NCBI RefSeq assembly: GCF_001886815.1
Contig: NZ_CP018099.1
Location: 2,788,501 to 2,852,500 of the forward strand
Origin: Caldithrix abyssi DSM 13497
GTDB taxonomy: Bacteria; Calditrichota; Calditrichia; Calditrichales; Calditrichaceae
Direction of reading: 5' to 3'
DNA length: 64,000 bases
The translations under genes and the position numbers were made by a program. Positions 1,140-61,115 of this stretch are shown here, one piece after another. Under the pieces are notes generated by a model that made no database searches, was not told the origin of the DNA, and worked only from the letters and a program-made list of their open reading frames with translations. Positions within the stretch are counted from its first letter, which is position 1; every line of letters begins with the position of its first letter.

Positions 1140-2510
1140 CAGCCCCCTTGAGGGATTTTATTTTTTGCCAGGATGAATGCACATCGTCTTCCAACAAGCT
1201 CCGCCAGAAGGGATGATGAACAGTTATTCAGATGTCCCTACGGGACATTTTTTCATTTGTGTGGTTTCACTTTTCCCGGCAGTGAACTGCCGCGTTATTC
1301 TCAAAAATCCCTGCGGGATTTAATTTTTTACAAAAAGAATTTAACACATCTACAGGGCATTGCCTTCCGAAGGCCAATAATTACGTCCCGGAGAGACAGC
1401 CGACAATAGCCCGTCGTTTCATCAGAGGGAGAAAATACACCAGAACAAAAAACCAGTCCCGCAGGGACGATTCAAAATAGCCCGTCGTTTCAACGGCGGG
1501 GAAAATGTACAACCCCAACCGCCAATCCCGTCCCGGCAGGGACGGTTGAACCATGGTGGCAGGTATTCAAATTGAGTGCTTGTCCTTTGTTCCCGGCAGT
1601 GAACTGCCGCGTTATTCTCAAAAATCCCTACGGGATTTATTTCTTACCTCAACAAGAATTTGACATATCTACAAAAATTTCACACTACGTAACGCCATTG
1701 AATCCGTCCCGTCAGGGACGATTGAAAATAGCCCGCCGTTTCAACGGCAAGGAAAATGTACACCGCTAACCGCCAATCCCGTCCCGGCAGGGACGGTTGA
1801 AACAGGGCGGAATGGTAATGCAATTGTCCCTACGGGACATTTTTTCATTTGTGTGGTTTCCCTTTTCCCGGCAGTGAACTGCCGCGTTATTCTCAAACAT
1901 CCCTACGGGATTTAATTTCCCCAAACGAAAATTCGACATATCTATATGAATTTACATTCCGTACGGCCAATAATTACCTCCCGGAGAGACGGCCGACAAT
2001 AGCCCGTCGTTTCATCAGCGGGAGAAAATACACCATAACAAAAAACAGTCCCGGAGGGACGATTGAAAATAGCCCGCCGTTTCAACGGCGGGGAAAATGT
2101 ACAACCCCAACCGCCAATCCCGTCCCGGCAGGGACGGCTGAAACAGGGCGGAATGGTAATGCAATTGTCCCTACGGGACATTTTTTCATTTGGGTGGTTT
2201 CCCTTTTCCCGGCAGTGAACTGCCGCGTTATTCTCAAACATCCCTACGGGATTTATTTTTTACCTCAACAAGAATTTGACATATCTACAAAAATTTCACA
2301 CTACGTAACGCCATTGAATCCGTCCCGTCAGGGACGATTGAAAATAGTCCGCTGTTTCAACGGCGGGGAAAATGTACAACCCCAACCGCCAATCCCGTCC
2401 CGGCAGGGACGGCTGAACCATGGTGGTAAGTATTCAAATTGAGTGCTTGTCCTTTGTTCCCGGCAGTGAACTGCCGCGTTATTCTCAAAAATCCCTGCGG
2501 GATGTTTGGA
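1140..2510. repeat. Palindrome-rich repeat array 1
   Basis: About 1.4 kb of non-coding sequence is made of repeated blocks, each a string of short palindromes: TGTCCCTACGGGACA, CGGCAGTGAACTGCCG, ATCCCTACGGGAT, CCGCCGTTTCAACGGCGG and CGTCCCGGCAGGGACG. The CGGCAGTGAACTGCCG block recurs five times (near 1275, 1592, 1867, 2208 and 2459), with uneven spacing of about 250-340 bp. Open frames inside it just translate the repeat and lack ribosome sites. It is the same family as the arrays near 38 and 41 kb, but less regular. Confidence 0.85.
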
Positions 2511-7189: not shown

Positions 7190-7475
7190 ATTTGAGAAAA
7201 ACTTGATTTCAATCCACCAGATAATTTATTTTGAGTAGAAAATTTCCTTCGTAAGATCGATCTCGCCATTCCCCATGGCGGGATGCGAAAATTTTTTTGA
7301 TTCTGAAGTGTTTGATTGGTTGAATGGTTGAATGGTTGAATGGTTGAATGGACAATCTGCAATTCTTCTGTTGTTTCAACGGTGGAAGTATGTGCTTTTC
7401 GCAGTTCGCACTGATCTACACAGATGCTTTTATTTCTATCTGCGCAATCTGCGCCAAAAAAATTGTTTGCGGCTG
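7190..7475. repeat. Dispersed intergenic repeat with GTTGAATG octamers
   Basis: This intergenic stretch carries about four tandem copies of the octamer GTTGAATG (7317-7350). It is preceded by a CGAAAATTTTTTTGATT segment and followed by a module resembling TTCTATCTGCGCAATCTGCG. The same order of modules recurs near 9180, 22810, 28920 and 29110. No ribosome sites or plausible coding frames are present. Confidence 0.75.
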
Positions 7476-9159: not shown

Positions 9160-9480
9160 CGTTTAGAAATTTAGTGGTTTAGAATACTTCCTTCGTAGAA
9201 TCTAGTCCCGACCTGGCGGGATTCGAAAATTTTTGTGCTGCTGGATTGGTTGATTAGTTGAATGGTTGAATGGTTGAATGGTTGAATAGAAATTTACAAA
9301 TGCGCAAACATTGAACATCATTGGAGAAAAATTTCCAACGAACAGTTCTTCCCACTCTTCCAGAATCTTTTTCTTGGAAAGGGGGTGAAGGAAAGAAAAA
9401 ATTTAAAAAAATACATTGTCTTTGACTTTCGGGACAGCCCCAGGGAAGGGGGGGCAAGGGGTGAGGACCAGCGCCGGCAA
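9160..9480. repeat. Dispersed intergenic repeat with GTTGAATG octamers
   Basis: The gap between the membrane-protein gene and the RND pump gene holds the modules seen near 29110-29320 in the same order: an ACTTCCTTCGTAGAAT-like start, CGAAAATTTTTGTGCTG, four or five GTTGAATG octamers (9247-9290), TGAACATCATTGGAGAAAAA and TTTCTTGGAAAGGGGGTGA. It is a ~200-bp dispersed element, not a gene. Confidence 0.75.
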
Positions 9481-17029: not shown

Positions 17030-17103
17030 TGCAGAGTGTCCATTCAACTATTCAACCATTCAACTATTCAACTATTCAACCATTCAACCAATCAACCATA
17101 CAA
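17030..17103. repeat. Octamer minisatellite (ATTCAACY)
   Basis: About eight tandem copies of the octamer CATTCAAC/TATTCAAC, the reverse complement of the GTTGAATG repeats found elsewhere in the window. They lie between the radical SAM gene and the convergent URO-D-like gene. Confidence 0.85.
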
Positions 17104-22802: not shown

Positions 22803-23300
22803 GATACTTCCTTCAAAAAATGTAATGCCTTAGCGTGAGAAAATTTTTGTGCTGTTTTAAAAACTCATCCCCCGTCGATGGATTGGTTGAATAGTTGAAT
22901 AGTTGATTAGTTGAATGGTTGAATGGTTGAATAGGTAGTCTGTCATTTCAAACCTGTTTCTGCAAATGTGGTGAATTCCTTCACCGTTGGAAAAGGGAAA
23001 AGTGTGTAACAGTTTAAGGGCCCTCCGCTCTGTCTTTACTAATTTCAATTTATGGGCTAAGGGTCTGCAGAGAAATCTCTATCAACGTTGGAAACAATCT
23101 TTCAGGCTCAGCATCCCCCACTCTCAGACTTTTATTCCTGGAAAGGAGGTGAGGGCTACCACATGGTTGAATGGACAGTCTGCAATTCTTCTGCTGTTTC
23201 AACGCTGGAGGTATGTGTTTTTCACTGATCGCGCTGATTTACACAATTTTTTTATTTCTGTTTGCGAGTATCTGCGCAATCTGCGTGAAAAGAAAATTAC
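22803..23300. repeat. Dispersed intergenic repeat with GTTGAATG octamers
   Basis: The segment begins with GGATACTTCCTTCAAAAAAT, continues with AGAAAATTTTTGTGCTG, CTCATCCCCCGT, several GTTGAATA/GTTGAATG octamers (22880-22935), TCATTTCAAACCTGTTTCTG and TGTGGTGAATTCCT. It ends with a TCTGCGCAATCTGCGTGAA module (23270-23290). 28910-29060 is nearly identical over ~140 bases. No gene is visible. Confidence 0.75.
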
Positions 23301-28719: not shown

Positions 28720-29480
28720 AACGCTGTAGCAACAATTTTCAATTTTAATGCCAGATATTTTTTTTGCTTTATTTTTTAGAATATCAATGAGTTAGCATGG
28801 ATTGGAGAATATTTGGTTCAGACTAATTGCGTCTAATTTATCAGACAGGTGTCTGATTTTGTTTACACAAAGTGGTTTAAAATAGTTACATTGTAAGACC
28901 TTTGCAGCCACAACATGAACGAAAATTTTTGTTCTGTTTTAAAGACTCATCCCCCGTCCATGGATTGGTTGAATAGGTGATTAGTTGAATGATTGAATGG
29001 TTGAATGGTTAGTCTGTCATTTCAAACCTGTTTCTGCAAATGTGGTGAATTCCTACCACCGTTTATGTAGGGGCGAAGGATTTCCAAGGACAATTCAGCG
29101 CTGGTAAGCATTAATCTTTAGGATACTTCCTCCAAAAAATGTAATGCATTTGCGTGCGAAAATTTTTGGGCTGTTGGATTGGTTGAATAGTTAATTAGTT
29201 GAATGGTTGAATAGAAATTTATAAATGCGCAAATATTGAACATCATTGGAGAAAAATTTCCAACGAACAGTTTTTCCCACTTTCTCAGACTTTTTTCTTG
29301 GAAAGGGGGTGACGGCAATTGAAACTATTTTTAATTTAAAACATTCTTTGCGCTCTTTGTGACTTCTCTGGGCTCTCTGTGGTCGCTTAAATTCCTGCGG
29401 GAATGTTTTTGCTTGCTGCTATGATGTACTAGGATTAAAAATTAAAAATTACGAATTACGAATTACGAATTAGGAATTAG
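28720..29480. repeat. Cluster of dispersed intergenic repeats
   Basis: The ~950-base gap after the lipid kinase holds two partial copies of the octamer-bearing repeat. 28920-29060 closely matches 22845-22985, and 29110-29320 matches 9170-9400 with GTTGAATG octamers. The end has an AATTACG heptamer run (29440-29480). 29481-29667 shows nothing I can identify. Confidence 0.7.
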
Positions 29481-30016: not shown

Positions 30017-31895
30017 AGTTTGACAGTTGTATGGAACATAATTCCTTTATTATTATTAAGTTAGTTTAATTTCATTTTCGTTAAGTTGTCACTACAAAGA
30101 TAAAAGCGTTGGCTTGCTGCTGCCTATCTCCTGAAATATTTCCAATTGTTCGCCATGCACTCTGGATAATCCTTTACGACGTCTCCCTTCATTTTCCCAT
30201 TCTACAACCACGACTCGACGCAGGCTCTCCATAGCACGCTGCCAACTTAATTTTATGCCACTCAAACGCTTCTCAAACAATACCGCCATCTGGAATGCAA
30301 GAAAACATACCATCACATGAGCCCTGATACGCTTCTCTGTCCAATGAAAATTGGGACGTAAATTCAAACTATGCTTTAATTCGTAAAAACCATGCTCCAC
30401 ATATTTTAAATCTTTATAGCGCGCTATGAGTTCTGATTTACTCAGGTCATGAGCATTGCTTATCACTATAAACCAACCGTCGCTCTTTTCTTCTTCTGAT
30501 AATACCTCATCTTGCTTATGAATCTCTATCGTATCTTCTGTTAATTCAACATTAAAGAAACGACTTAAACGTTTTCTTGATAATACACTCTTTATTTGAT
30601 GATATTTATCTTCTGTGTTTATTTCCTTTTTCTTAATCTCTTCTGACAGCTCTAAAAATTCATTAATACGATTGATGCGATTTTTATAGCGCTTTAATGC
30701 CGTGGCGGCATTGTAACTGGCCACATAACGAAGTTTTATCTTTTCCTTTTTACCATCTTTTGACTTGATTTCACGCTCCGTTAGGCGCTCATAGATCGTC
30801 TCACCAGTCGCCTCTTTATGCGCATTGGCTTCTTTTATAACCGATTTGGCATCCTTGCTCTGACGAACACTCTCTCCAAGAATAAACTCATAACCTTGTT
30901 GGATTAAATGCCAGAGATTGTCATTGCTTAATAAACCTTTGTCTGCCACCAGCTGGATATCTTTTACCTTAAATCGCCTGCGAATATCATTGAGCATCTC
31001 TTGCAAGGTAGAGCGATCAGCCTTATTGCCAGGGAAGACGTAATGGGCTATAGGAATACCATCTCCGGTCATCACCACGCCAATTACGATCTGTTCTCTA
31101 TCTCCGCGGTGGTCACGACTATAACCAAACTGACGAATATCGCCTTCTACCAATGAGTTTTCGGCTTCAAAGTAGCTTGATGTTAAATCATAAAAACAAA
31201 CCTTTAGATCCTGATTAAACAGATCTAGTAAACGATTAGCAAGTTGGGTTTCAATCTTTTCCTTATGAGCTATTAGAAAATCCATCGCTCTTAAAAGATA
31301 CTCATAACGAATGTCGTCTTTGTTGATACCCGGAATATAAACGGTTTCTAACCAGGTGAGTAGTTTTAGTTTGGAAGAAGGATCATCCAGGCGGTTAAAT
31401 ATCAGACTTTTTAAATGAGCTTCAAGATCAAACTTTATTCCGCTTTTTTCCTTTTGCCTGGCAATAATCTGGCTCATTTTAAGCTCTTTCCATAAATGGA
31501 CAAGCGCCCAGATTTGACCGAAGGCCTTGACATTATCAATATTGCTATCTAAGTCCTGTAAAGTTAACCCCTTAGCCCTTAAAAGTCCGTTGATAAGCGT
31601 GTCTACGTCTTTTTTGATGAATTTGTCGGTAGGGCCTAAATGCAGCAAGATTCGATGGCGTACTTTTCCATTTGAGTCTCTGTAGGACTCAGCGATTTGT
31701 AAAGTCTCATGGACTTTGTTATTTCTTTTGGATCGACTTACCTTAACAAACATAGAATGAATATAATAATAAAACGATTTGATAGCAAATAAAAAAAGCA
31801 CGCCTGCATAGACTACAAAGAAATTGAAACAGAGAAACTTAATTATATGTTTTTTTTGATTTGGCTTTGAAAAATTTGGCGTTAACTGTCAAACT
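30017..31895 (-). mobile_element. IS1634-like insertion sequence
   Basis: A 1879-bp element whose ends are the 12-bp inverted repeats AGTTTGACAGTT (30017-30028) and AACTGTCAAACT (31884-31895). It holds a single intact transposase gene and splits a sigma-54 response regulator gene. No target-site duplication is evident: the flanks are CAACTTG on one side and GGGGGTT on the other. Confidence 0.88.
30092..31753 (-). CDS. IS1634-family transposase
   Basis: A 553-residue DDE transposase, counted from the start at 31753 (MFVKVSRSKRNN). The sequence style is that of IS1634: VKVSRSKRNNKVHETLQIAE at the N-terminus, LVADKGLLSNDNLW around a catalytic acidic residue, and the HWTEKRIRAHVMVCFLAFQM motif near the carboxyl end. 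It appears intact, so the insertion could be recent and possibly active. Confidence 0.88.
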   Translation of the reverse strand: MFVKVSRSKRNNKVHETLQIAESYRDSNGKVRHRILLHLGPTDKFIKKDVDTLINGLLRAKGLTLQDLDSNIDNVKAFGQIWALVHLWKELKMSQIIARQKEKSGIKFDLEAHLKSLIFNRLDDPSSKLKLLTWLETVYIPGINKDDIRYEYLLRAMDFLIAHKEKIETQLANRLLDLFNQDLKVCFYDLTSSYFEAENSLVEGDIRQFGYSRDHRGDREQIVIGVVMTGDGIPIAHYVFPGNKADRSTLQEMLNDIRRRFKVKDIQLVADKGLLSNDNLWHLIQQGYEFILGESVRQSKDAKSVIKEANAHKEATGETIYERLTEREIKSKDGKKEKIKLRYVASYNAATALKRYKNRINRINEFLELSEEIKKKEINTEDKYHQIKSVLSRKRLSRFFNVELTEDTIEIHKQDEVLSEEEKSDGWFIVISNAHDLSKSELIARYKDLKYVEHGFYELKHSLNLRPNFHWTEKRIRAHVMVCFLAFQMAVLFEKRLSGIKLSWQRAMESLRRVVVVEWENEGRRRKGLSRVHGEQLEIFQEIGSSKPTLLSL

Positions 31896-36504: not shown

Positions 36505-37662
36505 ATGATAAATAGAATCATTACTTTACCCAAATCTTCGTTTTTTCTTTTTGGGCCCAGACAAACTGGAAAGACCACCCTGATCCATACGCTTTTTAAA
36601 GACCACATTTGGGAAATTAATTTACTGTGGACAGAAAACTTTCTGAAATATTCAAAATTTCCCCAGCAATTCCGCTTGGAAGCCATAGAAAAAATTATAA
36701 AAGAAAAAATCCGGTACATCTTTATTGATGAAATTCAACGTATCCCTTTATTGTTAAACGAAGTACACTATTTAATTGAAGAATTTCCGGGTTGTCAATT
36801 CATAATGACCGGATCAAGCGCTCGCAAGTTACGTCGTGGGGGCGTAAACCTGTTGGCCGGACGCGCCCTCGAGAGGCAACTTTTTCCCTTCACTTACCAG
36901 GAGATTAAAGAATCGATGAACCTGGAAGACCTATTAAAATATGGTTCGCTTCCCCCTTTATTAGAAAAAAACGACACAGAAAAAAGAGAAATTTTGAATG
37001 CTTACGTGAATACCTACCTCCGCGAAGAAATTCAGGCCGAGGGCATTGCCCGAAATATTGGCGGTTTTTCACGTTTTTTAGACGTGGCCGCTTCTCAATT
37101 TACCGAACTGCTGAATTTTAATGCCATTGCCCGCGATTGCGCGCTTCCGGTGCGCACCGTCCAATCGTATTATGAAATTCTGGAAGATACTTTAATTGGG
37201 TTTCGACTATTGCCCTGGCGTAAAAGTGTGCGCAAGCGTTTGAGGGCGCATCCTAAATTCTATTTTTTCGACAATGGCGTGACCAACGCACTGAACGGTA
37301 TGTTAACGAGTTCGCTTGCAGGAGCCATTAAAGGGAAACTGTTCGAGCAATTCGTCATTCAGGAGGTTTACCGCTTCAAACATTACCTGCAAAGCGAGGC
37401 CAATTTGTTCTTCTGGCGCACCAATCACGGAGCGGAAGTTGATTTGCTTATCGAAAAGCACAGGCAAATAAAATACATTGTAGAAATAAAGGTATCGACC
37501 ATTATCACCGGAGCGCATCTTTCCGGCATTCGCGCTTTTCATGAAGAAAATCCTGACGTTCCAGCCTACATTGTAGCGCCCGTGGACCAACCGTATGAAT
37601 TGGAAGGTGTTAAAATTTTACCCTGGCAACACTTCGTACTTAATCTGGAAAACTTTCTTTAA
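36505..37662 (+). CDS. AAA-family ATPase with DUF4143 domain (COG1373 type)
   Basis: A 385-residue predicted ATPase. The start at 36505 (MINRIITLPKS) is set by homology to the family. Walker A is GPRQTGKTTL (about 15-23), Walker B is IRYIFIDEIQRIP, and the sensor-like MTGSSARKLR follows. The C-terminal DUF4143 region shows LREEIQAEGIARNIGGFSRFL, RAHPKFYFFDNGVTNAL, GKLFEQFVIQEV and the nuclease-like end FWRTNHGAEVDLLIEK. These proteins are common and highly duplicated in some genomes; their function is not established. It lies beside a relic copy of itself. Confidence 0.85.
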   Translation: MINRIITLPKSSFFLFGPRQTGKTTLIHTLFKDHIWEINLLWTENFLKYSKFPQQFRLEAIEKIIKEKIRYIFIDEIQRIPLLLNEVHYLIEEFPGCQFIMTGSSARKLRRGGVNLLAGRALERQLFPFTYQEIKESMNLEDLLKYGSLPPLLEKNDTEKREILNAYVNTYLREEIQAEGIARNIGGFSRFLDVAASQFTELLNFNAIARDCALPVRTVQSYYEILEDTLIGFRLLPWRKSVRKRLRAHPKFYFFDNGVTNALNGMLTSSLAGAIKGKLFEQFVIQEVYRFKHYLQSEANLFFWRTNHGAEVDLLIEKHRQIKYIVEIKVSTIITGAHLSGIRAFHEENPDVPAYIVAPVDQPYELEGVKILPWQHFVLNLENFL

Positions 37663-38039: not shown

Positions 38040-38965
38040 TACAGGATTTTATTTTTCCTCAACATTAATTTGAAATATCTCCTGAAACTTACACTACGGG
38101 CCGGCCAATGAATCCGTCCCGTATGGACGTTTGAGAATAGCCCGTCGTTTCAACGGCGGGGATGATGAACCGAATCAAATCACAATCACGTCCCGTGGGG
38201 ACGGTTGAAAGAGGGCGTAATGGTAATTCAGTTGTCCCTAAGGGACATTTTTACGTTTTGTGTGGTTTCCCTTTTCCCGGCAGTGAACTACCGCGTTATT
38301 GTCAATAATCCCTACGGGATTTAATTTTTACTCCAACAAAAATTTGCCATATCCACAAAAATTTCACATTACGTACCGCCAATGAATTCGTCCCGTATGG
38401 ACGTTTGAGAATAGCCCGTCGTTTCAACGGCGGGGATGATGAGCCAACCACACAAAATCACGTCCAGTAGGGACGACTGAAACTGGGCGGGATGGTACTT
38501 CAGATGTCCCTACGGGACATTTTTACATTTGTGTGGTTCCCTTTTCCCCGGCAGTAAACTGCCGCGTTATTCTCAACAATCCCTACGGGATTTAATTTTG
38601 CCAAACAAGAATTTGCCATATCTACAAAAATTTTACATTACGTACCGTCAATGAAACCGTCCCGTGAGGGACGTTTGAGAATAGCCCGTCGTTTCAACGG
38701 CGGGGAAATACGATCCCCAAACCTAAATCCCGTCCCGTGGGGACGGTTGAAAGAGGGCGGGATGGAAATTCAGATGTCCCTAGGGGACATTTTTTCATTT
38801 GTGTGGTTTCCCTTTTCCCGGCAGTGAACTGCCGCGTTATTCTCAACAATCCCTACGGGATTTAATTTTGCCAAACAAGAATTTGCCATATCCACAAAAA
38901 TTTCACATTACGTACCGCCAATGAATCCGTCCCGTATGGACGTTTGAGAATAGCCCGTCGTTTCA
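38040..38965. repeat. Palindrome-rich ~271-bp tandem array 2
   Basis: Three to four units of a non-coding repeat. The CCCGGCAGTGAACTGCCG/TAAACTGCC block is at about 38276, 38547 and 38817, spacing 271 and 270 bp. Each unit carries the palindromes TGTCCCTACGGGACA, CGGCAGTGAACTGCCG, ATCCCTACGGGAT, CGTCCCGTATGGACG and CCGTCGTTTCAACGGCGG in fixed order. The array stops inside the last palindrome, at CCGTCGTTTCACCAGC, where the next ATPase cassette begins. Confidence 0.88.
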
Positions 38966-39164
38966 CCAGCACGCTATTTTTTGATTTTATGTCAATAAAT
39001 TAACATAAAAACTTGGTTGCAGCTCGAAGATCACACTTAATAAAATCAATCCGTTCGTACCTTATTTAATAATTATTGAAGGATCCCATCACGGAATTTG
39101 CTTTTCCAACATCACATACTTATATTTGTACATATTTAAAGTTAAACTTAAAATTTGTACAATA

Positions 39165-40334
39165 ATGGACTACATTCCTCGACAACTGGGAAAATTAGCG
39201 CTACAACTTAGCCAGCAATATCCGGCGATAACCATCACAGGACCCAGGCAATCCGGAAAGACCACACTGGCGCGTAGGTTATTTCCAAAAAAACAATACA
39301 TTAGTCTGGAAAATCCCGATGTGCGCGAAATGGCTACCTTCGATCCCCGTGCCTTTCTAAAAACAGTGGAAACGGGCGCCATTCTGGATGAAATTCAACG
39401 GGCGCCGGAATTGCTTTCCTATCTTCAGCAAATTATCGACGCTTCTACTGAAAAGGGTAAGTACATCCTGACCGGAAGCAATCAGTTTTCGTTATTAAAC
39501 ACCATTTCCCAATCTCTGGCAGGGAGAACGGTTCTCCTTAAGTTGTTGCCATTTTCCCTGACAGAAATAGCCGATTACATCCGGAGCTTTTCCAGCGATG
39601 ATCTCATGTATCACGGCTTTTTCCCGGCCATTTACAAAGAATCCTTAAATCCTACCTTATTCTATCGCAGTTATTACGAAACATATATTGAACGCGACTT
39701 GCGGCAGGTGACTCAGGTGAAGGATTTATTATTGTTCCAGAAATTTATTCGCTTATGCGCCGGGCGCATCGCTCAAACGTTTAATGCCAATCAACTGGCT
39801 AATGAAGTGGGCGTAAGCGTTCCCACTATTAAATCATGGCTTTCGATTTTACAAACCTCGTTCATTCTATTTTTACTGCCTCCCTATTTTGAAAATATCC
39901 GAAAACGGTTGATTAAGTCTCCCAAATTATATTTTTACGATGTCGGACTGGCGGTCTATTTACTGGGCATTGACAATCCGTTGCAATTAACGCGCGATCC
40001 TTTACGCGGCGCTTTATTTGAAAATATGGTCATCGCGGAATTGCTTAAGGCGCGATTTAATCGGGGCCTGGATGCCAATTTTTATTTTTATCGGGATCAT
40101 CATCAGAATGAAGTCGATGTGGTTTTTAAACAGGGAAGTTCATTTACCATTGCCGAGATCAAATCGGCGCAGACCTTTTCCCGACATTTTTTAAAGGGAT
40201 TGCACTATTTTCAGAAATTATTTCCCGACCGCACGATCCAGAAATTTTTGGTTTACGACGGAGAAATCGAGCAGCAAGTTGAAGGGGTTCAGGTGTTGAA
40301 TTTTAGAAGCCTATCTGAAGGTCTGCTATTTTAG
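39165..40334 (+). CDS. AAA-family ATPase with DUF4143 domain, embedded in the repeat array
   Basis: A 389-residue predicted ATPase starting at 39165 (MDYIPRQLGKLAL). Walker A is GPRQSGKTTLARRLF (about 23-30), Walker B is GAILDEIQRAP, with LTGSNQFSLL as sensor. The DUF4143 part shows YYETYIERDLRQVTQVKDL, KLYFYDVGLAVYLLG, GALFENMVIAELLK and a nuclease-like YFYRDHHQNEVDVVFK followed by AEIKSAQTF. It belongs to a different subgroup from the ATPase at 36505, so it is not its recent copy. No ribosome site is visible before the ATG. It lies between two tracts of the 271-bp repeat. Confidence 0.87.
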   Translation: MDYIPRQLGKLALQLSQQYPAITITGPRQSGKTTLARRLFPKKQYISLENPDVREMATFDPRAFLKTVETGAILDEIQRAPELLSYLQQIIDASTEKGKYILTGSNQFSLLNTISQSLAGRTVLLKLLPFSLTEIADYIRSFSSDDLMYHGFFPAIYKESLNPTLFYRSYYETYIERDLRQVTQVKDLLLFQKFIRLCAGRIAQTFNANQLANEVGVSVPTIKSWLSILQTSFILFLLPPYFENIRKRLIKSPKLYFYDVGLAVYLLGIDNPLQLTRDPLRGALFENMVIAELLKARFNRGLDANFYFYRDHHQNEVDVVFKQGSSFTIAEIKSAQTFSRHFLKGLHYFQKLFPDRTIQKFLVYDGEIEQQVEGVQVLNFRSLSEGLLF

Positions 40335-40429
40335 AGAGCGCCTTTGGGAGCTTTATTTTAATGTAATGAACGTTCGTTTAAATTTAATGATCCTATCCTG
40401 GAGAGGGGATTGAAAAATAAAGGCAGGTC

Positions 40430-41885
40430 ATTCAGATGTCCCTACGGGACATTTTTACATTTGTGTGGTTTCCCTTTTCCCGGCAGTAAACTGCCGCGTT
40501 ATTCTCAATTATCCCTACGGGATTTAATTTATACCAGACGAGAATTCGACACATCTACAGGAATTTTACACTCGAAACGTCAAATTAATTTCGTCCCGGC
40601 AGGGACGTTTGACAATAGCCCGTCGTTTCAACGGCGGGGATGATGAGCCAACCCATCCAAAATCCCGTCCCGTGGGGACGACTGAAACTGGCGGAATGGT
40701 AATTCAGTTGTCCCTACGGGACATTTTTACATTTGTGTGGTTTTCCTTTTCCCGGCAGTGAACTGCCGCGTTATTATCATAAATCCCTACGGGATTTAAT
40801 TTTGCCAAACAAGAATTTGCCATATCTACAAAAATTTTACATTACGTACCGTCAATGAAACCGTCCCGTGAGGGACGTTTGAGAATAGCCCGTCGTTTCA
40901 ACGGCGGGGAAAATGCACCGAACCAAATCACAATCCCGTCCCGTGGGGACGGTTGAAAGAGGGCGGAATGGTAATTCAGTTGTCCCTACGGGACATTTTT
41001 ACATTTGTGTGGTTTGCCTTTTCCCGGCAGTAAACTGCCGCGTTATTCTCATCAATCCCTACGGGATTTAATTTTTACTCCAACAAAAATTTGCCATATC
41101 AACAAAAATTTCACATTACGTACCGCCAATGAATCCGTCCCGTATGGACGTTTGAGAATAGCCCGTCGTTTCAACGGCGGGGATGATGAGCCAACCACAC
41201 AAAATCACGTCCAGTAGGGACGACTGAAACTGGGCGGGAGGGTACTTCAGATGTCCCTACGGGACATTTTTTCATTTGTGTGGTTTCCCTTTTCCCGGCA
41301 GTAAACTGCCGCGTTATTCTCATCAATCCCTACGGGATTTAATTTTTACTCCAACAAAAATTTGCCATATCAACAAAAATTTCACATTACGTACCGCCAA
41401 TGAATCCGTCCCGTATGGACGTTTGAGAATAGCCCGTCGTTTCAACGGCGGGGATGATGAGCCAACCACACAAAATCACGTCCAGTAGGGACGACTGAAA
41501 CTGGGCGGGAGGGTACTTCAGATGTCCCTACGGGACATTTTTTCATTTGTGTGGTTTCCCTTTTCCCGGCAGTAAACTGCCGCGTTATTCTCAATTATCC
41601 CTACGGGATTTAATTTTGCCAAATAAGAATTTGCCATATCTACAAAGATTTAACACTATGTACTGCCAATGAACCCGTCCCGGCAGGGACGATTGAGAAT
41701 AGCCCGCTGATTCATCGGCGGGAAAAGAAGCCCCCCAAACCAAAATCCCGTCCCGTGGGGACGACTGAAACTGGCGGGATGGTACTTCAGATGTCCCTAC
41801 GGGACATTTTTACATTTGTGTGGTTTCCTTTTCCCCGGCAGTAAACTGCCGCGTTATTGTCAATAACCCCTACGGGATTGGTATT
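40430..41885. repeat. Palindrome-rich ~271-bp tandem array 3
   Basis: Six units with remarkable regularity: the CGGCAGT(A/G)AACTGCCG block is at about 40479, 40751, 41023, 41294, 41565 and 41834, spacing 272, 272, 271, 271 and 269 bp. Units at 41023 and 41294 are almost identical over more than 200 bases, showing recent duplication. Hairpin stems are conserved while loops vary: the CGTCCC/GGGACG pair encloses GGCA or GTGA, and other copies are GTCCC-GTG-GGGAC and CGTCC-CGTAT-GGACG. Short frames inside have no start signals and are not genes. Confidence 0.9.
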
Positions 41886-42067
41886 TTTGCAAATTTCATC
41901 CCATAGGATCGGGATCAGAATGCCACCTACAATTTAAGTCTAATTAAAGCCAGAAAAGGCATCGATTAAAAATTTTTCCATTAAACAAAATACACAAAAT
42001 TCCACATTTTGTTTACCATAATAAACCCATTAATTCTATTGTAAAAGTTTTCTTAATCTAAAGGACA

Positions 42068-42321: not shown

Positions 42322-44026
42322 AGGCTGTTGCAAATTCAGTTTGAGTAAAATTCAAAAAATTTGTAAATTCTGGGCGACAGATAAAACAAGTAATAACAAA
42401 GGAATTCCATGAGTTTTATTACTTATAATCGCTCACAAATGAATCTCTTTGGCTATAGTGTGGAAGATTTTGCCAGAGACGATCCAAAGAGTCGATTTGT
42501 AGTGGAGTTGGTTTCGCGCCTTGATTTAAGTGCACTTTATTCCCGTTATAGTTCACAAGGCGGTGATTCTTATGCCCCAGACATGATGCTTGCCTTATGG
42601 TTTTATGCTTATAGTAACGGCATTACCAGCACCCGTAAGCTGGAGGAATTGTGTAAATATGATACGCGCTACATTTATATCACTGGGAATCAGCATCCGG
42701 ATCATAGTACATTAAGTCGTTTTCGCAAGGCACATTTGGATTTATTAGACCAATATTTTGTAGAGATACTTTTAATTGCCCAGGCCGAAGGCATAAGTAG
42801 TTTCAACCAGATAGCCATAGATGGCACGAAAATCAAAGCGCACAGCAGTAAGCGTCATGGCTACACTGAGGATCAATTAGACAAACGTATAGAGAAGTTA
42901 AGAGCAGAGATCAAGCAATACATGCAGCGCTGTAATTTTGTAGAACAGGGGGCCACGGATGAATTAGATTTAGAAACTCTTCGAGCGGAGAAAGAACGGC
43001 TTGAGCGCTTAGAGAAAGAGATATTAGAACGTAAAGCCCAATTGAAAGAGCGTAAGAAACAGCTCAAATCAGAACACCGTTCAAGACATCAAATAAATGT
43101 AAAAGAGCCGGATGCCCGCATGATGCCTTCGGTGGATGGACCGGGCTATAACGCACAATTAGGCGTAGATATGTCCAGTCATTTAATAGTAGCTCATGAA
43201 GTCGTAAGCCAGCCCAACGACCAGGGTCAATTCATACCGATTCAAGAACAAGTAGAGAAGAATCTTGGTTCAGATGATAAGCGATCTTACACGGCCGATT
43301 CCGGTTATCACAATAGCACAGACCTAAAAGAATTGGAAGAAAAGCAGATTGATGCCGTAATAGCCGATCCCCAGTTATCCAATCGTTCGATAAAGGAGAC
43401 ACCAACCTCCAAGGAAGAATTGCAAAAAGAAGAAAGAAAACTAAAACGAAGTGATTTTGTGTATCATGAACAGGGAGATTACTATGAATGTCCGACGGGT
43501 AAGAAGCTTTTTCCAGTTGAGAGAAATAGCGAACGGATCGTATATCGTTCCAATGATTGTCAGGATTGTCCCTTAATTAATTTATGCATTTCCAGTAAAA
43601 AGAAAGTTAAGCAAATCCATCGTTCAGTTAATGAGAGTTATTGCGAACGTATGGCGAAAAAGTTACAAACTTCAGCGGCGCAGGAACGACTAAAAAAGCG
43701 TTCGGTGACAGTTGAACCTGTTTTTGGTAACTTGAAGCATAATTTAGGCTATCGTGGATTTTCCTTATCTGGTCTTAATAATGTTCGTAGTGAATTTACG
43801 TTAATGTGTATTGGGCATAATATTAATGTTCTATTTAAAAATATGTTAGGGAAACGTTTAGCAGCGTTTATAACAGCATCACAAGAAAAAGATGATCTAT
43901 TAATTTTATTTTCAAAGAATATTTTGGCGTTTTTAATTCTATATTTTGCCCAACGCTTAAGAATGAGAAAAAAATATCAATATCGGAGAATATAAGCATT
44001 AATTCCTCCCCCCCATGCAACAGCCT
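42322..44026 (+). mobile_element. IS1182-like insertion sequence
   Basis: A 1705-bp element with terminal inverted repeats AGGCTGTTGCA (left) and TGCAACAGCCT (right), flanked on both sides by the six bases CCTGGG. Removing it restores CCCGCCTGGGCGGG, the near-palindromic core of a dispersed repeat found elsewhere in the window, so the target is a hairpin-like sequence, as reported for this IS family. It contains one transposase gene and ends 91 bases before the DnaE start. Confidence 0.9.
42409..43995 (+). CDS. IS1182-family transposase
   Basis: A 528-residue transposase, preceded by AAAGGA. The start domain has RSQMNLFGYSVEDFARDDPKSR and the DDE core has IAIDGTKIKAHSSKRHGYT and the later YTADSGYHNSTDLK. 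A coiled, Lys/Glu-rich insert spans about 155-225. The Cys motif CQDCPLINLCISS precedes the terminal VEPVFGNLKHNLGYRGF. The gene appears intact. Confidence 0.9.
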   Translation: MSFITYNRSQMNLFGYSVEDFARDDPKSRFVVELVSRLDLSALYSRYSSQGGDSYAPDMMLALWFYAYSNGITSTRKLEELCKYDTRYIYITGNQHPDHSTLSRFRKAHLDLLDQYFVEILLIAQAEGISSFNQIAIDGTKIKAHSSKRHGYTEDQLDKRIEKLRAEIKQYMQRCNFVEQGATDELDLETLRAEKERLERLEKEILERKAQLKERKKQLKSEHRSRHQINVKEPDARMMPSVDGPGYNAQLGVDMSSHLIVAHEVVSQPNDQGQFIPIQEQVEKNLGSDDKRSYTADSGYHNSTDLKELEEKQIDAVIADPQLSNRSIKETPTSKEELQKEERKLKRSDFVYHEQGDYYECPTGKKLFPVERNSERIVYRSNDCQDCPLINLCISSKKKVKQIHRSVNESYCERMAKKLQTSAAQERLKKRSVTVEPVFGNLKHNLGYRGFSLSGLNNVRSEFTLMCIGHNINVLFKNMLGKRLAAFITASQEKDDLLILFSKNILAFLILYFAQRLRMRKKYQYRRI

Positions 44027-50099: not shown

Positions 50100-51743
50100 C
50101 CTAAATTTCTAAAGTAAAAAATTTTAACAAAAAAATAGTATTGCCCTGTATTTACTAAGAGAATTATTTCCCCTAAATTTTAGAAAAATCTACCTAAAAT
50201 TGCCATTATTTTACTCAATTCTTTTTCATTAGACGATTTTTCCTGTTACGAAACATTGAATTGGACGTACCTCGCCCTTTTATTCTTTTTAAAAAAATCA
50301 GACACAAAATTTTTATGAATCTTTGTTAATTTCTTACGTAAAACTCAAGGCGTCTATTCTTGAATCTATTTTAGACCACCAGCTCTTGTAATAATAAGAA
50401 CTGTACATTCTTAGGTGTACTTGTCTGGCCGATTTGGTAATCTTTCCGGCTAATTGAATAAACCAGAGTCTAAAACTATGGGGCTCCTGGCGCCAGGCCT
50501 TCTCATCGGTTAATTTCCGAAACCAAACACTTATATTGTAAGCCAATACACTTAAAAGAAAAAATGTTTCATTTACCCAAAAATCTTTGGTCAAAATCAT
50601 ACCAGCATATAATTGATTTTTGACCGCCTCGATCCAGTTCTCGCTCTCTCCACGATCTCCATATAAATGATGTATATAAAGCGGGCTTTCTTCTATATTG
50701 GTGACATAACAAAAATAAGTATATTGTTTGTAAGGAAATAAACTGTCTTTTTCTACTATCTTCTCAAATTTACGTAACGCTACAAAACGTCTGGCCTTTG
50801 ACCAACCTTGCGCACGATAATAAAATTCGCTCATCTCCCAACCTTCTAATTCCGGAATTGATTCCCAATCCTGGTCCTTTAGTAGATGTTCCAGATTTTT
50901 TAACTTGACTTTGACTAAATATTGAATCTGGCCGGAGTAACTTTCTAATAGGCTCAGAACTTTGTCATTAAAAAAGCCACTATCGGCACGGACAATTAAA
51001 AATCTTATTTGCTTGACTATCATAGAAAGCACCTGTTTTAAAAAGGCATCCGCATTATTGGCGGTGTAGGCATCCCCAGGTCGAAGCCAGGCCGCAATAC
51101 ACTCTTTGGTACTGTTGAGAAAAGCTAATAAGGGATGGTAGCTACGTTTGCCTTTATGCCTGGGATTAAATCCTTTTTTTGCACCTTCTTGTTTGCCATA
51201 GACCGTCTGAACCGTAGAATCCAAATCCAATATATCACGCTTTGTATGAAGTCTTCTATGAATCTTATTAGACAGAAAACCAATGACTTCTATTAATTGA
51301 TTATTCTGACGAAAACTGAACTTTTTGAAACGATATCGGATCGTGTCAATATCCAAATGCCCATTGAGATCAAATAAGTGATGGATTAAAGGGTCTAAAC
51401 TAAAATGTTCGATTTTTAAAAGACGATCCATACCGCCGAGTAAACCAAGAATCATTATATTGAAAATTTGAGCCAATGAATATTTTTGATTATGTCTTCC
51501 CTCTATGGTAAGTTTGGTTTCTATTAGTTTATCTATCCCTAACTTTTTCATGAATTTGTAAATTGGATATAAGCCGGAATAATTAGTTAAATTGCCGCCT
51601 GTAAAAGAAGTTTTGACACTTTTATGATTATTTTTTATTTTCATCTACAAGGTGCTCCTTTCTTTTGTTTTTTTGTTTTTGTAACTAACTTAATTTACAA
51701 ATAATTGGAGCACCTTTCATCTTTTTTACATTAGAAATTTAGG
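50100..51743 (-). mobile_element. IS1380-like insertion sequence
   Basis: A 1644-bp element bounded by inverted repeats: left CCTAAATTTCTAAAGTAAAA and right TTTTACATTAGAAATTTAGG, with one mismatch over about 22 positions. It holds an intact transposase gene. It truncates an outer-membrane protein gene. No clear target duplication was seen, which suggests later rearrangement of the flank. Confidence 0.88.
50334..51644 (-). CDS. IS1380-family transposase
   Basis: A 436-residue DDE transposase. It shows the IS1380 pattern: TSFTGGNLTNYSGLYPIYKF at the start, ILDLDSTVQTVYGKQEGAKKG with the first catalytic Asp, FLIVRADSGFFNDKVL with the second, and YGDRGESENWIEAVKNQL with the catalytic Glu. It appears intact. 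Confidence 0.9.
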   Translation of the reverse strand: MKIKNNHKSVKTSFTGGNLTNYSGLYPIYKFMKKLGIDKLIETKLTIEGRHNQKYSLAQIFNIMILGLLGGMDRLLKIEHFSLDPLIHHLFDLNGHLDIDTIRYRFKKFSFRQNNQLIEVIGFLSNKIHRRLHTKRDILDLDSTVQTVYGKQEGAKKGFNPRHKGKRSYHPLLAFLNSTKECIAAWLRPGDAYTANNADAFLKQVLSMIVKQIRFLIVRADSGFFNDKVLSLLESYSGQIQYLVKVKLKNLEHLLKDQDWESIPELEGWEMSEFYYRAQGWSKARRFVALRKFEKIVEKDSLFPYKQYTYFCYVTNIEESPLYIHHLYGDRGESENWIEAVKNQLYAGMILTKDFWVNETFFLLSVLAYNISVWFRKLTDEKAWRQEPHSFRLWFIQLAGKITKSARQVHLRMYSSYYYKSWWSKIDSRIDALSFT

Positions 51744-51914: not shown

Positions 51915-52165
51915 TTGGTTGAATGGTTGAATGGTTGAATTTTAAAAGGCGTAATGGATTATTAAAAAATCGTTCAAAAAACAACAAGAAAAAAACTAAA
52001 AATCGTTTAAAAAGAATTTCTTGATTTTTCAACATCTTAAACATAAAAATTTGAGGTTCATTTTTGCTCATTGAAATTATACTAAAGATTGTAAAAAATG
52101 TCAAAAATTTTTGTGTATTTTTTCTCTATTTTTTTCGACCGCAACAAAATTAAACAATTGGCCGT

Positions 52166-60059: not shown

Positions 60060-60960
60060 AATTAAAAATAGTTTTTTATTGCTCGTAATTGCCCTCACCC
60101 CCTTTAATTCCCCCTCTCCCAGAATAAAAGTCTGGGAGAGGGGGAAGTTTCGCATGGCAGATTATTTCCAACGGTGTAAAGAACTCTCGCGCTGGTCAGT
60201 TTCGTGCAAAGGCGGGAAGAGGAGTGCCAGGCCGGCGACCATTCAATTTTGAACCAGGATTTACTTGATTTCGGGATTTCTAAGATTTGCTTTTTGTGGT
60301 TACGAAATTTCGCCTTAAATTTGAGTGCAAATTTACACGAGTGAAAAAAATCAAGTTAATCCTGTAATCATATTAATCAAGGTTCAAAAACTACCTCAAA
60401 ACCTCAAAACTCTTATACTCTTATACTCTTATACTCATACACTTTTTTTGCCCAAAGGTGGCAGGAAATGCCCGGAGTGGCCCTCTCCCCCTTTAATTCC
60501 CCCTCTCCCAGAATAAAAGTCTGGGAGAGGGGGAAGTTTCGCATGGCAGATTATTTCCAACGGTGTAAAAAATTCCGAGCTGGCCAGTTTCACGCAAAAG
60601 CAGGAAGAAATGCCAGGCTGGTAGCCAATTAAATTTGAACCAGGATTTACTTGATTTCGGGATTTCTAAAATTTGCTTTTTGTGGTTACGAAATTTCGCC
60701 TTAAATTAGAGAGCAAATTTACACGAATGAAAAAAATCAAGTTAATCCTGTAATCATATTAATCAAGGTTCAAAAACTACCTCAAAACCTCAAAACTCTT
60801 ATACTCTTATACTCTTATACTCATACACTTTTTTTGCCCAAAGGTGGCAGGAAATGCCCGGAGTGGCCCTCTCCCCCTTTAATTCCCCCTCTCCCAGAAT
60901 AAAAGTCTGGGAGAGGGGGAAGTTCTGTACGTGGACAGTTTTTCCCTAAGGTGTAATGGA
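60060..60960. repeat. ~387-bp direct tandem repeat with three strong hairpins
   Basis: Two full and one partial near-identical units follow one another: the CTTTAATTCCCCCTCTCCC segment begins near 60102, 60491 and 60877 (389 and 386 bp apart). Each unit contains a hairpin of CCCCTCTCCCAGA and TCTGGGAGAGGGG around ATAAAAG, an ATTTCGGGATTTCT segment, and a TTATACTC octamer run (three copies). Copies 1 and 2 differ by only a few per cent. No ribosome site is seen in any frame. Confidence 0.88.
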
Positions 60961-61054: not shown

Positions 61055-61115
61055 CCCCATTCAACCATTCAACTAATCAACCATTCAACTAATCAACCAT
61101 CCAACTATTCAACAA
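61055..61115. repeat. Octamer minisatellite (ATTCAACY)
   Basis: About seven copies of the octamer CATTCAAC/AATCAACC, the same family as the tract at 17030-17103. They lie just before the DUF35 gene stop. Confidence 0.8.

Follow-up and report, generated by a model that had tools for sequence, protein, structure and literature searches.

The tandem hairpin arrays of Caldithrix abyssi DSM 13497, built from a ~271-bp unit, are probably non-autonomous repeats of the REP/TIR type that belong to a family of Y1 (HUH, IS200/IS605-like, subclass 1.2) transposases, judging from comparison of their sequences across genomes. This assignment is drawn from two observations. First, copies of the hairpin module of the arrays flank 46 of 80 Y1 loci in an outward-facing orientation. 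Second, the same hairpin set surrounds a Y1 gene in relatives of the organism. The arrays have apparently been amplified in tandem in a genome that has no autonomous copy of the element. The ATPase gene that splits one of them is an occasional guest.

Organization of the arrays

The window, a 64-kb stretch of the 4.98-Mb single-contig genome, contains two tracts that lie on either side of an AAA_14-DUF4143 ATPase gene (Table 1). TRF reports a tandem repeat with a period of 270 and 3.2 copies for the left tract (38104-38965) and a period of 271 and 5.3 copies for the right tract (40431-41879), in agreement with the unit profile, and the two tracts of one regular ~271-bp unit described in the first-pass annotation are upheld. 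That annotation counted five palindromes per unit; six hairpins are seen, in the order H1-H2-H3-H4-H5-H6, and the unit is near-identical to its own reverse complement, with H1/H6, H2/H5 and H3/H4 as inverted partners. The stems are CGTCC..GGACG (H1), CCCGTCG..CGGCGGG (H2), CGTCCCGTGGGGACG (H3), TGTCCCTACGGGACA (H4), CCCGGCAGT..ACTGCCG (H5) and AATCCCTACGGGATT (H6). Because the unit profile hits both strands of every unit, and because H3 and H4 form inverted arms, the unit is an inverted structure. A single strand of the array, folded as DNA, scores 4-5 sd better than dinucleotide shuffles.

The left tract breaks off within H2, directly after CCCGTCGTTTCA (position ~206 of the 271-base unit). 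The right tract restarts at unit position 1, such that ~65-73 unit bases are absent between them. This agrees with the earlier description of a tract that ends inside a palindrome and resumes ~73 bases on, in unit phase. Since a weak and probably decayed H3 hairpin lies to the right of the ATPase gene, the gene appears to sit between H2 and H3; the left tract halts in H2, and H4 follows the H3 remnant on the right. The proposal that the gene interrupts one original array is sustained. The stems are better conserved than the linker from H6 to H1, but homogenisation of the units accounts for part of this conservation. Two units of the right tract share 99% identity, and they match one left-tract unit at 95-96%; another right-tract unit is nearest (92%) to an array 680 kb away.

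A profile search of the genome identifies six array sites of this unit type, and 113 module matches of the Acido-Lenti-1 type are found genome-wide with our model R1 (see below). One of these sites, the third tract in the window (1226-2505), went unmentioned in the first-pass annotation. A 428-aa DUF4143 gene interrupts the array at 3,677.5-3,680.7 kb, lying on the same strand directly after H2 and before H4; the two arrays are split at the same unit point. Another array (L034 6905-10142) consists of two tracts around a 730-aa T9SS-type gene, which lies between H2 and H5. A palindrome previously reported for Caldithrix abyssi (PMC5317091) has no exact copy in the window.

Several other repeats and mobile genes are present in the window. 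By TRF, an octamer related to TTGAATGG/CCATTCAA forms short arrays at 7304-7351, 9247-9287, 17040-17103, 22886-22934, 28966-29010, 51916-51940 and 61057-61113, and a 386-bp tandem duplication (2.2 copies, 94% identical; TRF) occupies 60091-60924. Three full-length DDE transposase genes lie at 30092-31801, 42409-43995 and 50334-51644 (PF01609, PF13751 and PF13701); one of the three lies to the right of the array at a distance of ~500 bp.

Table 1. Positions of the array tracts, hairpins, module copies and ATPase genes in the window, and of the array sites in the genome.
Feature	Position	Strand	Description	Basis
Left tract	38040..38970	+	~3.4 units H1-H2-H3-H4-H5-H6 plus linker; ends within H2	unit profile, TRF
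Right tract	40430..41902	+	~5.4 units, from just before H4 to after H6	unit profile, TRF
Third tract, same repeat family	1226..2505	+		unit profile; Acido-Lenti-1 above gathering
H3 and H4, inverted partners	40667..40722	+	20-nt arms, 90% complementary	
Probable decayed H3 hairpin, right of ATPase gene	40389..40431	+	weak	1-11/1000 shuffles score equally well
H1-H2, example	40592..40638	-		Rfam 25.7-28.4 bits, below 37-bit gathering; R1 50.8-52.6 bits
H1-H2, further copies	38115, 38389, 38658, 40862, 41136, 41407, 41676	-		
H5-H6, example	40479..40524	+		R1 53.6-64 bits
H5-H6, further copies	38276, 38547, 38817, 40751, 41023, 41294, 41565, 41834	+		
AAA_14-DUF4143 ATPase gene	39165..40334	+	inside array; ORF open from 39126	DUF4143 4.6e-51, AAA_14 5.9e-29; PADLOC PDC-S01 3.8e-98
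Second AAA_14-DUF4143 ATPase gene	36505..37662	+	~380 bp left of left tract, outside it	PADLOC PDC-S01
Array sites	window 1.2-2.5 kb; window 38.0-41.9 kb; 1,009.9-1,013.1 kb; 3,509.7-3,511.2 kb; 3,677.5-3,680.7 kb; 4,582.9-4,583.3 kb			unit profile

The hairpin module corresponds to Acido-Lenti-1

H1-H2 (read on the minus strand) and H5-H6 (read on the plus strand) both represent a single two-hairpin module, the Rfam family Acido-Lenti-1 (RF01687). The general layout is a hairpin, a CTATTNTCAA linker and a TCCC/GGGA hairpin; in H5-H6 these are a 20-nt hairpin, a ~12-nt linker of the form (C/T)TATTNTCAA and the short TCCC/GGGA hairpin. With the Rfam gathering score of 37 bits as the threshold for membership, copies within 38040-41885 fall below it, at only 25.7-28.4 bits, and two minus-strand copies in the window array at 1226-2505 reach it (42.3 bits at 1455-1500 and 52.6 bits at 2047-2092), the latter being the strongest copy in the genome. 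Another array of the genome has copies of 41.2 and 39.9 bits, above gathering, and a 51.1-bit copy is also present in the genome. The earlier suggestion that the system may be undescribed falls away, since its core module is already listed in Rfam and its kind is nearest to the REPtrons and TIRtrons.

The training sequences of R1, our own module model, had been preselected for pairing, and the covariation counts of the model are thus not independent evidence. The first stem of the module varies on both sides across genomes. Counted for signs of a strand preference, wobble-pair oppositions number 27 A-C versus 20 G-T in a loose module set that includes many false members.

Association with Y1 transposase genes

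In three Calditrichaceae relatives (G003, G007 and G011), an IS200-like transposase gene (Y1, HUH; subclass 1.2) is bordered directly by the hairpin set. The G011 locus is an array of H1-H6 modules split between H3 and H4 by a Y1_Tnp gene (150 aa; PF01797, 2.5e-25), and single Y1 genes in G003 and G007 lie between H1-H2-H3 and H4-H5-H6. The array unit corresponds to both flanks of such a gene joined without the gene.

Y1 loci were collected by protein alignment alone from a scan of 84,980 species genomes, which yielded 80 loci in many phyla. An R1 match lies within 300 bp at 46 of them, with matches on both sides at 27; the other 34 related loci have no R1 match within 300 bp. The module copies beside Y1 genes face outward and are inverted: upstream, the copy closest to the gene is on the minus strand at 39 of 40 loci (39:1, p 7e-11); downstream, the closest copy is on the plus strand at 32 of 34 (32:2, p 7e-8). 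Thirteen RsmE control loci in relatives show no R1 match above 20.5 bits. The independent Rfam model places Acido-Lenti-1 above gathering at 9 of 20 of these Y1 loci, where the copies adjoin the gene; the positive loci belong to Acidobacteria, Lentisphaerae, Planctomycetes and Calditrichota, and the Acidobacteria and the one Lentisphaerae contig among them represent the groups from which the family was described. Flanked loci cluster on the Y1 protein tree.

The subclass 1.2 signature, Y---Q--HH, is present in the Y1 proteins, where alignment A3 shows it as YINNQREHH together with a conserved C-terminus; the proteins also match transposase structures of the IS608 and ISDra2 types. TnpA-Y1 proteins of this subclass have been described as carrying that signature and a C-terminal extension, generally without the typical terminal structures of IS200 (Quentin et al., PMC6006769). 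The three Y1 genes of C. abyssi itself are located elsewhere than the arrays, and none is flanked by the module; in the tree, two are placed among mostly unflanked loci and the third forms a long branch. These genes are rejected as current drivers of the arrays, since no module lies beside them.

The hairpin set also occurs in other repeats. In G007 it lies within DDE-type, MITE-like elements of about 300 bp (L370-L381, L369) that have their own TIR, CATAGGCGTCAACTTAA, and are bordered by short direct duplications of palindromic CCCGA..TCGGG targets; a TIR pair of the same kind is found on a Terriglobia contig (L288, 2817 and 3074). In G011, two subfamilies of ~520-bp dispersed repeats (L382-L387) have the order H4-H5-H6, a ~380-bp core and H1-H2-H3. 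Because of these two contexts, the idea that H1-H6 always form the outer ends of a mobile unit is contradicted, and other elements can carry the module as well. Tandem Acido-Lenti-1 modules with periods of about 66 to 130 bp occur beside Y1 genes in Acidobacteria, Planctomycetes and others (L303, L276, L277, L299).

ATPase genes in the arrays

Both window ATPases match the PADLOC defence candidate PDC-S01 (3.8e-98 and 2.8e-64), a very common candidate defence family; experimental validation is described as pending for most such candidates (PMC12988326). The literature searched contains no link between the AAA_14-DUF4143 family and hairpin arrays, and the window ATPase has no PDB relatives by sequence. 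The genome encodes ten DUF4143 genes, two of which lie inside arrays and one of which adjoins an array; the other seven have no module nearby. The nominal probability of at least two of ten inside arrays is ~1.3e-4, a value computed after seeing the data. The two lie in two of the six arrays, at the same unit point and in the same orientation.

The first-pass annotation had tentatively paired the array with the ATPase as a mobile or structural system. Its mobile component stands, through the Y1 transposase genes that the module flanks, and the ATPase as partner does not: among roughly 75 DUF4143 loci examined, strong modules lie near those of this genome and near one each in G001 and G007 only. 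There is no regular co-occurrence of arrays with DUF4143 ATPases across genomes, array loci of other class members rarely have a DUF4143 gene, and the array and ATPase are rejected as a general pair. The consistent partner is the Y1/HUH transposase. The over-representation of these genes in the arrays of this genome is unexplained.

It is quite possible, if short of probable, that the arrays are passive landing sites and that genes, mobile defence-candidate ATPases among them, insert into intergenic hairpin clusters. This concerns only how the ATPase arrived and is compatible with arrays of REP/TIR type. It is consistent with the variety of genes that interrupt arrays, two DUF4143 ATPases and one T9SS-type gene, and insertion sequences are known to enter REPs; a published precedent is the location of ISPpu9 within REPs of Pseudomonas putida (PMC8450116). 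Such insertion leaves the DUF4143 over-representation and the shared unit point unaccounted for, however.

Comparison of the 3,677.5-3,680.7 kb array with three congeneric genomes reveals empty sites. Its border genes, GSCFA and RsmE, are neighbours in G001, G002 and G003, with neither a module nor an ATPase in the intervening gap of about 164 bp, 81 bp and about 720 bp, respectively. Whatever their origin, the arrays could act as BIME-like elements in supercoiling or transcription termination, in line with their stable DNA hairpins, their intergenic position and the roles proposed for REPs (PMC3733652), but the arrays are patchily distributed and congeners have empty sites, which speaks against any essential role, and we consider such a function unlikely.

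A dedicated system, in which the DUF4143 ATPase serves to maintain, mobilise or otherwise act on the array, is very unlikely. The shared unit point and orientation of the two array-borne genes, with the post hoc probability given above, would fit it, as would the best Acido-Lenti-1 locus of the congener G001, where the end of a DUF4143 gene lies immediately ahead of an H4-like hairpin in an array of ~320-bp period. Against it, most DUF4143 genes in the order, including the seven in this genome, have no module nearby; most arrays have no such gene; a T9SS-type gene fills the equivalent gap of another array here; and the consistent link is instead with the Y1 transposase. Finally, it is also very unlikely that the modules are transcribed small RNAs and the array an RNA-producing locus, in spite of the Rfam type of RF01687 (Gene; sRNA) and its flagging as a probable RNA when it was described from Acidobacteria and Lentisphaerae (Weinberg et al. 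2010), since the modules lie on both sides of transposase genes, facing outward, and stand in tandem on both strands, neither of which a single sRNA gene needs.

Comparison with known systems

The arrays are closest in kind to REPtrons and TIRtrons. Like the REPs, BIMEs and REPINs of REPtrons (RAYT), they are intergenic palindromes in inverted pairs, which there also occur in clusters and arrays, and the repeats adjoin a Y1 gene in relatives and at the flanked loci, although not in this genome. Unlike REPs, they have neither a GTAG nor a GGAG tag at the hairpin foot; the conserved foot here is (A)ATAGC, on the strand opposite to that of Rfam, and the unpaired tag beside the hairpin is AATAGC rather than GTAG. 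The transposases of the module-flanked loci differ too, in having the Y---Q--HH signature of subclass 1.2 (PMC6006769). In TIRtrons (TIRYT), known from Acidobacteria, a Y1 gene lies between long TIRs that are also dispersed as dimers and clusters, and the published TIRs have the motif GGGGWSAS (Di Nocera et al. 2013, PMC3733652). The layout in G003, G007 and G011 is alike, with a Y1 gene between long inverted repeats that are also dispersed; here, however, the TIR is a three-hairpin set, and tandem arrays are formed at ~271 bp.

The likeness to Acido-Lenti-1 lies in the 46-nt two-hairpin module itself, of which several copies here and in relatives exceed gathering. In contrast to the sRNA of Rfam, this is a repeat that flanks Y1 transposase genes across many phyla and that in this genome forms part of tandem arrays. 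The window ATPases match the PDC-S01 profile, but that family is known as a candidate defence gene and is not tied to hairpin arrays in the literature searched.

A model for the arrays and its implications

As repeats of a Y1 transposase family, the hairpins would be recognised and processed by the transposase on single-stranded DNA. A unit without the gene may once have been mobilised in trans; its amplification, together with its linker, into tandem arrays could be due to circle-type processing or to unequal recombination. The unit identities suggest that the arrays now exchange sequence with each other. The ATPase genes are presumably later guests that entered one unit between H2 and H3/H4. 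Their position is the part of the unit that holds the transposase gene in relatives, and the ATPase could have been carried there as cargo or have landed by chance. It is doubtful that Acido-Lenti-1 elements of subclass 1.2 Y1 transposases carry PDC-S01 ATPases as cargo where the transposase gene would otherwise lie, which would make the arrays a mobile or exchangeable platform for candidate defence genes.

Assignment of the arrays to a Y1 transposase family would account for a striking family of tandem hairpin arrays. Acido-Lenti-1, a curated RNA family, would be reassigned from small RNA to transposase-associated repeat, and Y1 subclass 1.2, in which typical terminal structures have been described as generally absent, would gain a candidate DNA substrate. 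The ATPase link, if confirmed, would tie the arrays to a very common family of defence-candidate genes.
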